NCBI GenBank assembly: GCA_015232565.1
Contig: JADFZK010000019.1
Location: forward strand, 1 to 51,814
Reading direction: 5' to 3'
Source: Candidatus Omnitrophota bacterium
Lineage (GTDB): Bacteria; Omnitrophota; Gorgyraeia; Zapsychrales; Fredricksoniimonadaceae
DNA length: 51,814 nt
Notes under the pieces: generated by a model
The model's database searches: none
Seen by the model: only the letters and a program-made list of their open reading frames with translations
Told to the model about the DNA's origin: nothing
Program-made: the position numbers and the translations under genes
Shown here: positions 4,331 through 8,232 of the stretch, one piece after another
Layout: every line of letters begins with the position of its first letter
Position numbering within the stretch: position 1 is the stretch's first letter

Positions 4331-6571
4331 CTAACCACCTACGGGCGGTGAAGAAATCCCATAAACGCCCAAGAACCGCGGTAAGTTATCAAAGCGTTCC
4401 ATGCCAATGATCTCCGACTCCAAGCCATCAGCATTTTGCATGCGGTCCAGCATGACAGGGTCTACATTGAATTGAATTTCACCCCCGCTGCTTTTATTCT
4501 CAACCTTCATCCGCTCAGCGGCCAGGTCAATACCACCCCTATCCGATCTATCCGTCTGCGCGCCATCACCAGACCCCTCGGTACTTAGATGATCATTTGC
4601 CTGGTAGGCAGGCACTTCTTCTGTGTCTACGCTATTAGCACTAGGGCCTATCCCAGATCCATCCCCCAAAAACAAAAGCGTTCCCCGGTCTGTCAAAACA
4701 CGACCATGCCCTTCCATCTTGTAGTAATCCCAATGGCCGGAGTCAAAAGGGATGTGCGCACAGAAAACCCCTTCAGGCGCAAAATACTTCAAGATATTGT
4801 GAACGTAATCAGCTCGATCTGAGAAGTTAAGATTTATAAGATAATGCGTAACACTAGCGAAGCCCCATCCAGCAATAACTTTGCCACGTACCCCCATCTT
4901 GTCTAGCTGACCAAACAAATCCTGAGCTCTTCCAAAAATAAAAGACACCTCCGGAAAATTTATTATTCTGGAATCCAGGACATTTCCAAATGCCAGAATA
5001 TGGACGTTCTTGATCCCTTCACCCCTCAATCGATGGATCAGATCGTTTAACGCCGAATCTAATCGCCCCGCCCCCCAATCAAGCACATAGTGTACCTTAT
5101 CAGGCTCAGCTCGAGCCATCCGAATAATATGGGCAAAAAGACTTCTTCCCTTCTGTCCCGCCATCGCAGCAACGGAACTCTGAAAGAACTGATCAATTGT
5201 GTCGTAGGAAGTTGCTTGAATTGACCAAGGAAAATTATCGTAAGTTTCGATCACATTACCGTCAGTAACCTTTATAAACGGACTGTTCTGCATTGCTTGT
5301 AATACCGATTCTCTCGAAATATGAGGCGATGCAATATAAACATTTAAAGGTAATTGTTCCACTCTAGGCCTAGAGTCTCCCATTGTGACAGCCTCTGACT
5401 TATCGTCTACTGTTCTCCCTACTTGTATAACTTTCTTCAGCGGCCGGGTTATCATTGTAATGATCATAGCCCGAATAAAACGAATCCTCGTCAATGTTTC
5501 TAAGCCCACAGGCTTTTTTTCAAACACATTGTTCATCGCCCAGTCTATCCCGCCGGAGAAATACTTTCTCGGGATGGTCTCCTGTGTGGTTGGGTCATAT
5601 TCTTCCTTTATGAGGTTATATGCACCCTTCTTAAACGTCTCAACGTACTGTTGATAAATAATTTCATTCTCGTTCTTGTCGGCAATATCAATGCCGGCGG
5701 TCTTCTGCTGGTCAACATACGCCCGCCCAAGGATGCTTTCCTTAACCTTGCGCTTGTACCACGTTGCCAAGATCAACGAATTATATACTTGGCGGAGCGG
5801 TGCGAAGTTCTTGCCTTCGTTGACTTCTTTCTCAAGAATGGGAATCACGACCTCACGGACAATGTCCGACCCAAGCTTATTGGTAGTTGGCATGGCCTGC
5901 TCTTTGACCGCTATGTTCTTGTCAAGGGCCAGGTAATCCTCTTCCAGCATAACCTTCAGCTTGCTTTCCACTACAACTGCGGCGTCTTTATTTTCGTAGA
6001 CCGTCGCCTTTTCGGGAATAATCCAGACCTTGTTAAACGTATCAACGGGGATGTCAGTCGTACCGTATCTTTTAAGCATTTCAGCATAGACCTTGCCCCA
6101 AAACTCCTTGCCAATTTTGCCTTCAGGATAAAAAACAGACGCCGTTATCTGCTTGAGGATGTAATCCTGTGCAAGGAGGTCACGCCCCATTTCGGTCTGA
6201 CCAAAGGCGTCTGGCACAATACGGTCTTTCTCATAAGGCGAAAGATTAACCCAAAGGTCTTTCTCAGGAACGGTCAACGAGGCGAGGAAATATTTTATAA
6301 GACGGTTGGCATCGGTCTTTAGCTGCTGGACTGATTCCGGGTCATCACCTGTATCAAGAATAAAATCAAAGCGGAAAGGGTCATTACGATAAATCTTGAT
6401 GCCCTTAAGTAGTGGCGGAACAAAGGGCTCGCTTAAGGAAACCATGGTCCCGGGTGCAGACATTAGAACAACGCTCTGAGCATACGAAGTCCCCACAGAT
6501 CCTATGACAAATACAGCCGCCACAAGCCCGGAAATGACTTTTTTGCAATATCTCCCAAAAAATCTGTTCAT
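4331..6571 (-). CDS. Secreted modular protein with methyltransferase-like core
   Basis: The 746-residue product starts at the ATG at 6571 (MNRFFGRYCKK); a TTG nine bases upstream is an alternative. A signal peptide ends near the TSYAQS motif at about residue 32. Residues ~33-345 form a module shared with 49175-51694: LLKGIK.YRNDPFRFDFILD, then VPEKDLWVNLSPYEKDRIVP, ending QETIPRKYFSGGI. A different core follows. Near residue 495 VLDWGAGRLDSAL resembles motif I of class I SAM-dependent methyltransferases, followed by an alternating strand-helix region to about residue 640. The last ~65 residues begin GGIDL and match the C-terminal module of the other two family members. Export would be odd for a SAM enzyme, so the fold may be reused for another role. 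Function is unknown. It is on the minus strand, between the glycosylase and the IS110 element. Confidence 0.8.
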   Translation of the reverse strand: MNRFFGRYCKKVISGLVAAVFVIGSVGTSYAQSVVLMSAPGTMVSLSEPFVPPLLKGIKIYRNDPFRFDFILDTGDDPESVQQLKTDANRLIKYFLASLTVPEKDLWVNLSPYEKDRIVPDAFGQTEMGRDLLAQDYILKQITASVFYPEGKIGKEFWGKVYAEMLKRYGTTDIPVDTFNKVWIIPEKATVYENKDAAVVVESKLKVMLEEDYLALDKNIAVKEQAMPTTNKLGSDIVREVVIPILEKEVNEGKNFAPLRQVYNSLILATWYKRKVKESILGRAYVDQQKTAGIDIADKNENEIIYQQYVETFKKGAYNLIKEEYDPTTQETIPRKYFSGGIDWAMNNVFEKKPVGLETLTRIRFIRAMIITMITRPLKKVIQVGRTVDDKSEAVTMGDSRPRVEQLPLNVYIASPHISRESVLQAMQNSPFIKVTDGNVIETYDNFPWSIQATSYDTIDQFFQSSVAAMAGQKGRSLFAHIIRMARAEPDKVHYVLDWGAGRLDSALNDLIHRLRGEGIKNVHILAFGNVLDSRIINFPEVSFIFGRAQDLFGQLDKMGVRGKVIAGWGFASVTHYLINLNFSDRADYVHNILKYFAPEGVFCAHIPFDSGHWDYYKMEGHGRVLTDRGTLLFLGDGSGIGPSANSVDTEEVPAYQANDHLSTEGSGDGAQTDRSDRGGIDLAAERMKVENKSSGGEIQFNVDPVMLDRMQNADGLESEIIGMERFDNLPRFLGVYGISSPPVGG

Positions 6572-6653
6572 AGCCAGCAAGGCCCCTGGTATGGAAAACC
6601 GCCGTCAACCCTTTTCGCGTTCGTGTTAATTGCTCGTCATTTCATAACGCAAC

Positions 6654-6844
6654 AAAAAAAGAGGAACGATTGGCGGCTTCGACGATGAATCAACCTGGTA
6701 TGCGTAGGTTCAGCTCATTTTCATGAACTTACTACAGTGGATCAACTCCGTCTGGGCCTGCCTTGCACTACGTGTCGTGCATTCAGAATTTCTTCCTAGC
6801 ACATAGGGGAGCCAAGGATTGCCCTCTCGTGCCAATCGTCCCTC
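6654..6844 (-). ncRNA. Candidate structured RNA (~184 nt) ending in a T-run
   Basis: GCCAATCGTCCCTC at 6831-6844 and GAGGAACGATTGGC at 6661-6674 are inverted repeats that pair at 13 of 14 positions. On the minus strand the closing stem is followed directly by seven T residues (6654-6660), as in an intrinsic terminator. Inside I see at least four smaller hairpins: GCAC/GTGC enclosing GGG/CCC, TGCAC/GTGCA, TCAT-GAAA-ATGA, and AACCT/AGGTT. No long reading frame lies here. It sits downstream of an IS110-family transposase on the same strand, the place where IS1111-group elements encode their target-guiding (seek/bridge) RNA; that role is inference. It occupies most of the 316-bp gap between the two flanking genes. 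Confidence 0.5.
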
Positions 6845-6858
6845 TTAGAATGCTCCTG

Positions 6859-6874
6859 ATGGTTTTTTAAAAAA
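6859..6874 (-). terminator. Perfect A/T palindrome after the transposase gene
   Basis: GGTTTTTTAAAAAACC is a 16-base perfect palindrome starting 14 bp beyond the transposase stop. It could act as a weak terminator in either direction, or mark an element end. Without an internal loop, cruciform or hairpin formation would be strained. Confidence 0.3.
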
Positions 6875-6887
6875 CCGTTTATTCAAT

Positions 6888-7988
6888 TTACCGGCTAAAA
6901 CCCGTCTCATGCGTCATTAACGACCATACAAAACCGCTTAACTCTCGAGCCACAGCCACCGTTGCAATATTTTTCTCTTTTCGATTCGCTAACCGCCAAT
7001 ACTTCTTGCTCAATCTTTGCTGGGCCTTCCACGAATACTCTTTCACTTCGACCGCTATATCGTTCTGCCGGTCTTTTAAGGCTTTTGTCACTGCCGGCTT
7101 ATGCCGATAATGCCAGGCCGCCTCCACGAACACCCGTCTTAATCGTCGATTCCCGGTTCCCGTAATTGATCCAAGCCTTCGAGATCCGCCGGAACTGTAC
7201 TGGCTTGGCACCAACCCCAAAAACCCCATAAAATCTTTTGCCCCGGCGAACCGCTTAAAATCGATCACCTCCGTGATGATCGTCATCGCACTTAATGTGT
7301 CTATCCCGCGGAAACTCCTTAACTTCTTAACCGGCTCCGCATATTGATTGCTCACCGACAAGTGCTCAATCCCAACTTCGATCTCTCTTAATTCGATCTT
7401 CTTGAATTCCAACATCGCCAAGTATCGGTCGAACACAAACTGCTCATGCTTATTCTCGAACTTTAATCTCTTAAGAAAAAACTCATGCTCTTGCGTCCAA
7501 TTACTACCCTCGTAACGATATCCGCGTAACTGTAAAAACTTCAGAATATACTGCCTTGATTGATTTAGTTCTTTTAAAATCTGTTCCCGCAACCGCACCA
7601 GAGCCCGGTCCGCTTCTTCGGATGCGCTCGGAACATGAACCCGAACCAACTCTCCCGACCGATACAACCGGCCGATCTTCTTTGCGTCACGCTTGTCGGT
7701 CTTTATCCGGTCTCCGCTTCGTTTCGGGATCAAGCTCGGAGCAATCACATCGCATCCGGCTCCGATTTCTTTCAACCACCGATACACTACATACCCGCAA
7801 CCGCCCGCTTCATAACACGCCCGTACATCATATTCTTCCACCAGCTTCTTGTAAAACTTCTGCACGACACCGCGATCATTTACCAGACGCTTCTCGATGA
7901 ACGGCTCATTCTCATCTGCCCGATACACTGCCACCTCAATAAAATCTTGATGAACATCATTCCCTGCATATACTATTGCTTGTCTCAT
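6888..7988 (-). CDS. IS110-family DEDD transposase
   Basis: This 366-residue recombinase has the IS110 layout. The N-terminal DEDD RuvC-like domain shows D11 (GNDVHQDF), E60 (CYEAGGCG), and D98 and D101 (KTDKRDAKKIGRLY). A coiled linker lies around residues 130-210. The C-terminal transposase_20 domain contains RSFRGIDTLSAMTIITEV and a serine motif (YSSGGSRRLGSITGTGNRR), which supplies the catalytic serine of this family. Length and motifs are complete, so it is probably active. The ATG at 7988 follows GGAGG by five bases; that binding site is part of an inverted repeat that could hide it. Related enzymes act with a non-coding RNA that guides target choice. Confidence 0.95.
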   Translation of the reverse strand: MRQAIVYAGNDVHQDFIEVAVYRADENEPFIEKRLVNDRGVVQKFYKKLVEEYDVRACYEAGGCGYVVYRWLKEIGAGCDVIAPSLIPKRSGDRIKTDKRDAKKIGRLYRSGELVRVHVPSASEEADRALVRLREQILKELNQSRQYILKFLQLRGYRYEGSNWTQEHEFFLKRLKFENKHEQFVFDRYLAMLEFKKIELREIEVGIEHLSVSNQYAEPVKKLRSFRGIDTLSAMTIITEVIDFKRFAGAKDFMGFLGLVPSQYSSGGSRRLGSITGTGNRRLRRVFVEAAWHYRHKPAVTKALKDRQNDIAVEVKEYSWKAQQRLSKKYWRLANRKEKNIATVAVARELSGFVWSLMTHETGFSR

Positions 7989-7989
7989 T

Positions 7990-8069
7990 ACCGCCTCCTT
8001 TTAATGACTGTTTCAGTCATTTGTAGCTCTGACAACTCACGTTGTCAACCTACGCTCAAGGGAGGCGGT
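7990..8069 (-). promoter_or_regulatory. Folded transposase leader that can sequester its ribosome binding site
   Basis: On the minus strand ACCGCCTCC (complement of 8061-8069) pairs perfectly with GGAGGCGGT (complement of 7990-7998), which holds the transposase Shine-Dalgarno. Two perfect inner hairpins lie between them: GACAAC/GTTGTC (8031-8046) and AATGACTG/CAGTCATT (8003-8021). The result is a closed multibranch structure ending three bases from the start codon. It could repress translation of the transposase or be part of an element-encoded RNA. Confidence 0.55.
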
Positions 8070-8232
8070 TTTTCATGATACTACCTTTCTCGCTCTAAAT
8101 ATAAAACATTATTTCTCACATTGCGAATTTATTTAATATCTAAGAAGAGAGAAGGGATATTGTCTCGCAGAAACCATCATTGTGCGCGTCAGAGTCCATT
8201 TAGCACGGAACCACCGCCAACACCTCAACAGG

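Follow-up and report, generated by a model that had tools for sequence, protein, structure and literature searches.

The window, a stretch of 51,814 nucleotides, contains on its minus strand an intact DEDD transposase gene followed by a structured RNA segment, both enclosed within the ends of an IS1111-type insertion sequence (Table 1). The transposase matches the NCBIfam model of IS110 RNA-guided transposases (NF033542, 227 bits), and its nearest solved structures are IS621 (E 7e-8; PDB 8wt6) and ISCro4. The candidate catalytic residues are D11, E60, D98 and D101, in the motifs GND, YEAG and TDKRDA, and the motif GLVPSQYSSG at residue 258 fits the IS1111 pattern GL-P----SG. At 366 aa the protein lies outside the 330-350 aa quoted for IS1111 transposases in PMC11187229, which is a typical rather than a strict range. 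Non-coding sequence extends for about 300 nt between the stop codon and the right end and for about 90 nt on the upstream side of the gene. The RNA segment lies in the former stretch on the strand of the transposase, in the downstream position that the first-pass annotation had recognized as that of the IS1111 group. Between the stop codon and the RNA there is also a perfect 16-nt palindrome (GGTTTTTTAAAAAACC, 6861-6876).

The sub-terminal inverted repeats of the element (ATGGAAAACCGCC at the right end, read on the plus strand, and ATGAAAAACCGCC at the left end, read on the minus strand) match at 12 of 13 positions, and the ends of relatives show the same pattern of repeat and extension. Read in the sense of the transposase, the right end is CAT-ACC-AG and the left end is AG-TATC-ATG, from which the core is taken to be AG, or CT on the opposite strand. 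The element lies between a 749-aa signal-peptide gene with no Pfam match (4331-6580) and a promoter-like block at 8090-8140 (TTCGCA-18-TATATT); in related genomes this block is found directly upstream of similar genes. Removal of the element in silico rejoins the block to the gene, as in the G130 and G337 homologues; a search of the genus for an orthologous empty site returned none, only homologous promoter-gene arrangements. In the related G107 element (L010), rejoining the flanks restores the target AGTGCCAGGTCCCTTCATCCCG, which is one of the two arms of a perfect 22-bp inverted repeat, the second arm having remained in place (L010 ~1208-1220, 2697-2738); IS1111 elements are known to enter REP-like palindromes. 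In addition, the joined ends create a predicted promoter, TTGACG-17-TATCAT in the window and TTGACA-17-TATTAT in G107, and such circle-junction promoters carry at least 10 of the 12 consensus bases in 6 of 13 elements, compared with 0.3% of shuffles. Promoter formation on joining of the ends is described for IS1111 elements in PMC11187229. The element ends are thus supported by the G107 palindrome, the promoter-gene arrangement in the window and the circle-junction promoters, and, defined in this way and with the help of relatives, they include the RNA segment, a point on which the first-pass annotation could have failed.

Table 1. Features of the IS1111-type element and of a related fragment (window positions unless a locus is named)
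Feature	Position	Strand	Evidence or remark
IS1111-type element, 1495 bp core to core	6586..8082	-	Sub-terminal repeats, relatives, promoter-gene arrangement restored on removal
Core, CT on plus strand (AG in transposase sense)	6586-6587 (right end); 8081-8082 (left end)		
Right sub-terminal inverted repeat	6591..6603	-	3-bp extension ACC at 6588-6590
Left sub-terminal inverted repeat	8064..8076	-	Extension AGTATC at 8077-8082
Predicted -35, TTGACG	6603..6608	-	17 nt from the -10 once the circle forms
Predicted -10, TATCAT, in left end	8075..8080	-	
DEDD transposase, 366 aa, intact	6888..7988	-	Pfam PF01548 and C-terminal PF02371
Guide (bridge/seek) RNA body, bounded by closing stem	6661..6844	-	Fold z -4.1, covariation, matches of model R1 downstream of related transposases
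Closing stem, 5' arm, GAGGGACGATTGGC (partner 6661-6674)	6831..6844	-	Two-sided changes in 10 of 10 modelled pairs in some relative
Closing stem, 3' arm, GCCAATCGTTCCTC	6661..6674	-	Two-sided changes in 10 of 10 modelled pairs of the helix
U7 tail (T7 in DNA)	6654..6660	-	Sequence; only in the window copy and the G115 fragment
Right target guide (RTG) loop, GCUCCCCUAU	6803..6812	-	CCCCU (6809-6805) pairs with AG-GGG of the right flank
Left target guide (LTG) loop, GACACGUAGUG	6766..6776	-	GUAG (6771-6768) equals left flank GT-AG
Left donor guide (LDG), CAUACCAG	6695..6702	-	Identical to element right end CAT-ACC-AG
Putative right donor guide (RDG) loop	6737..6747	-	UGAU (6744-6741) pairs with left extension ATCA; weak, permutation 134/20,000
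MITE-like unit, 266 bp	L012 1481-1746 (G115)		21-bp perfect inverted repeats TCATATATGTCCAATTGGGAC; holds RNA 3' half and truncated right end

The RNA segment folds on the minus strand at -76.9 kcal/mol (z = -4.12; none of 200 shuffles equalled it), compared with a z of only -1.84 on the plus strand. Its closing stem, in which the first-pass annotation had counted 13 pairs over 14 positions, consists of 13 Watson-Crick pairs and one G.U, and the inner hairpins claimed at the same time are likewise present. Two arms lie inside the stem. The 5' arm runs in the order CCUUG, loop, GUGC hairpin, loop, CAAGG, and the donor loop is here a simple internal loop below one hairpin. Pairings given by RNAalifold in the target loop were rejected in favor of the CCUUG/CAAGG stem. 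The seven-T tail, which had been taken as a further indicator of the RNA, does exist, but it is not conserved in relatives other than the G115 fragment (see below) and is therefore not a feature of the family. A stable stem followed by U7 might also be read as an intrinsic terminator or attenuator of the transposase mRNA instead of a guide RNA. This is most improbable, however, as the arms of the stem lie ~156 nt apart, no standard terminator was found, most relatives lack the T run, and the inner loops are either conserved or follow the junctions of the element. The RNA has no match in Rfam at gathering score, and below that score chance matches only; a new covariance model would therefore aid the annotation of such elements.

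A covariance model (R1) was built from three elements (window, G107 and G271), in the alignment of which, under a structure written by hand from the three sequences themselves, 94.4% of pair cells are paired and 11 pairs show two-sided changes, compared with 29-42% and at most one pair in slid-partner controls. In a 16-sequence alignment, which was fitted to the covariance model, 93.8% of pair cells are paired and compensatory changes occur in 27 of 36 pairs (101 cells), the corresponding controls giving 28-46% and two-sided changes in at most 13 pairs. The predicted fold and these pairings confirm that 6661-6844 (minus) encodes a conserved RNA, which is discrete as originally proposed.

The DNA and protein searches covered 384 genomes of the phylum (the window's class in the model search). 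The model matches the RNA in six of the 384, and a transposase or its remnant adjoins all but the G115 fragment. The G107 transposase is 58% identical to that of the window, and the transposase of G271 is cut off by the contig end. Outside the building set, the G463 RNA (E 7e-11) adjoins an intact transposase and the G217 RNA (E 6.5e-35) is a relic beside a broken transposase remnant. The latter (L029 2-307) also adjoins the C-terminus of an ORF resembling, by eye, a REP-associated Y1 transposase. Model matches are also found on plasmids of Pseudomonadota, Bacillota and Spirochaetota (E 6.5e-11 to 0.0075), with Cupriavidus, Azospirillum, Agrobacterium, Rhizobium, Sphingobium, Chelativorans, Pseudosulfitobacter, Klebsiella, Alicyclobacillus and Leptospira as hosts, and these RNAs sit directly downstream of transposases ~36-41% identical to that of the window. 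The occurrence of the RNA downstream of related transposases spans four phyla. The model search gave no match in L070 (Rhodococcus), in L067 and L071 (IS5075), or in L003-L005 and L011, which confines the RNA sequence family to a subgroup, and a search of viral contigs found neither a protein relative nor a conserved RNA motif.

The sole RNA without a transposase, the occurrence that would speak against the association made in the first-pass annotation, is the G115 fragment from the 384-genome search, which is 95% identical and lacks the 5' half of the RNA and the outermost right end. This fragment is flanked by perfect 21-bp inverted repeats, which recur at three other loci in G115 and at none in the window's genome. 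We read the half-RNA as a captured relic inside a MITE-like repeat, and not as a counter-example.

The two loops of the 5' arm match the sequences into which the elements are inserted. Complementarity between the RTG loop and the right flank starts at the core and extends outward over 8 nt in G107 (AGGGACCT), G271 (AGGGGACA), L062 (AACGGGCA) and L065 (TTCTCGAC), over 7 nt in L063 (AGCGTGT), over 6 nt in G217 (AGGAGG) and G463 (AGTGTC), and over 5 nt in the window (AGGGG). The LTG loop repeats the sequence of the left flank as far as the core, as seen in G107 (ATGAAG), L069 (CACGTAG), L065 (CAGCAG) and the window (GTAG). The window's own target match is thus short (RTG 5 nt and LTG 4 nt, AG core included), and that of L054 is poor (2 and 3 nt). 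In the elements tested RTG precedes LTG, that is, the top-strand complement lies 5' of the bottom-strand match.

The 3' arm carries the motif AU-NNN-AG, in which NNN is the 3-bp right extension of the element's own end. In the window this is AUACCAG, with its DNA counterpart CATACCAG at the right end. The triplet is ACC in the window's clade and ATC, GAG, AAG or CGG elsewhere, and the only exception among the elements tested is L061 (CAG vs GAG). The last hairpin offers another candidate for the right donor guide in its apical loop (UUCAUGA in the window, AUAAUA in G107), but no claim is made for it, as matches of such length are little above chance.

The longest match of each guide to its own junction was compared with that to the junctions of other elements by permutation (13-15 elements, 20,000 trials). 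The mean longest match, own against others, is 5.87 vs 2.80 for RTG, 4.77 vs 3.13 for LTG and 6.93 vs 4.02 for LDG, and in each case none of the 20,000 permutations reached the observed value, compared with 134 for RDG (P ~0.007); these significances are inflated, since related elements were treated as independent. With one element per close group (10 elements), the observed match was reached in 0 (RTG), 1 (LTG), 1 (LDG) and 451 (RDG) of 100,000 permutations; L013, L029 and L052, whose right ends were placed knowing the guide, were excluded from this test, and of the Agrobacterium/Chelativorans pair it holds the matching L063 and not the non-matching L054, both of which are in the larger test. 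The prediction that the loops should match the joined sequences is thus borne out for one element end and both insertion flanks, with matches that follow the identity of the element. The permutations support a left donor guide that would read the right-end extension; the case for a right donor guide is weak.

Taken together, 6654-6844 (minus) almost certainly encodes the guide RNA (seekRNA or bridge RNA) of an IS1111-type insertion sequence. Sequence comparison gives the structure, the location, the element ends and the agreement of three guides with their own junctions; transcription, transposase binding and catalysis would proceed as follows. Excision would join the element ends into a circle, the junction of which would create a sigma-70 promoter from which the transposase and then the RNA would be transcribed. 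The RNA would bind the transposase, the internal loop of its 5' arm bearing both target guides, so that RTG could pair with the top strand to the right of the core and LTG with the bottom strand to its left. The second loop, in the 3' arm, would bear the donor guides, AUACCAG reading the right end (3-bp extension plus core) and, less certainly, a 5-nt donor block reading the left end. The complex would exchange strands at the core AG (CT on the opposite strand), and the circle would be inserted without target duplication.

Of particular interest is the role of the donor loop. In the alternative reading the RNA is a target-finding seekRNA only; the donor loop is conserved as a structural motif or as a binding site for protein, and its likeness to the element end is due to coincidence or shared ancestry. 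Siddiquee et al. (PMC11187229) report for ISEc11 that an 82-nt RNA with the target guides is enough for transposition, the AUACCAGG block is highly conserved in the window's clade, and the right donor guide is weak. Against this, the triplet before AG tracks the right extension through five variants in nearly all elements, and the permutation counts for LDG are as low as those given above, which makes a target-only role quite unlikely. We consider it probable that the long RNA of the IS1111 subgroup is a complete bridge RNA, with recognition of the ends as well as choice of the target guided by RNA. Its conserved 3' loop would then read the variable 3-bp right extension, and probably also the left extension. 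If so, end recognition could be reprogrammed.

Natural variation in the target guides is seen in Cupriavidus, where L053 and L060 are 96% identical over the 1239 bp between the left end and the start of the RNA. Of 169 RNA positions, 5 differ between the two, and each of these falls in one of the two target-guide loops (P 1.4e-5), as retargeting would predict. This is an apparent case of natural retargeting, though neither RNA matches its own site much better than the site of the other. In the window's genome, the element could be an immobile relic and its RNA a fossil out of use: RNA and transposase are both single copy, the target match is short, and a search of the genome for the guide-predicted target found no perfect second site, sites with one or two mismatches being no commoner than in the control. 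This reading is possible but on balance doubtful, as the transposase ORF is intact with its catalytic motifs, the ends and the RNA are intact, and recent movement is suggested by the 95%-identical fragment of RNA and right end found in a different genus of the family.

Guide RNAs of this kind were first described in 2024 (PMC11187229 and PMC11208160). The IS1111 seekRNAs of ISEc11, ISPa11 and ISKpn4, as presented by Siddiquee et al. 2024 (PMC11187229), share with the window element the downstream non-coding region, the sub-terminal repeats (~11-13 bp) with asymmetric extensions (~6-7 and 3 bp), the order of guides (top-strand complement first) and the circle-junction promoter, here predicted. 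Their long form of 145-170 nt is nearest to the predicted ~184 nt here, whereas the transposase is longer here (366 aa against 330-350 aa) and the donor-end matches found here are not described in the available text of that paper. The bridge RNA of IS621 (IS110; Durrant et al. 2024, PMC11208160; PDB 8wt6) has the same two internal loops, target and donor guides that take in the core CT/AG, as predicted here, and a homologous DEDD recombinase. However, the IS621 RNA lies upstream of the gene, the sub-terminal repeats are only 2-3 bp and the guide order differs. The predictions of Durrant et al. for IS1111 members (among ISPpu10, ISAar29, ISHne5, ISCARN28, ISAzs32 and ISPa11) place donor- and target-binding loops in the right end, as here, although in many of them the donor nucleotides lie in a multiloop rather than a simple internal loop. 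Likeness of function and family membership agree, save for the slightly longer transposase, and the window RNA is a new example of the known IS1111 seekRNA/bridge RNA, of modest novelty. It offers independent confirmation, from a genome without cultured-model context, that IS1111 elements may carry two-sided guide RNAs. The most useful addition is the covariation of the donor guide across phyla, which suggests that the RNA follows not only the target but also the element end, a point on which the founding papers differ, PMC11187229 stressing target guides only and PMC11208160 predicting donor guides, and the cross-phylum set of elements makes this question directly testable by paired mutations.
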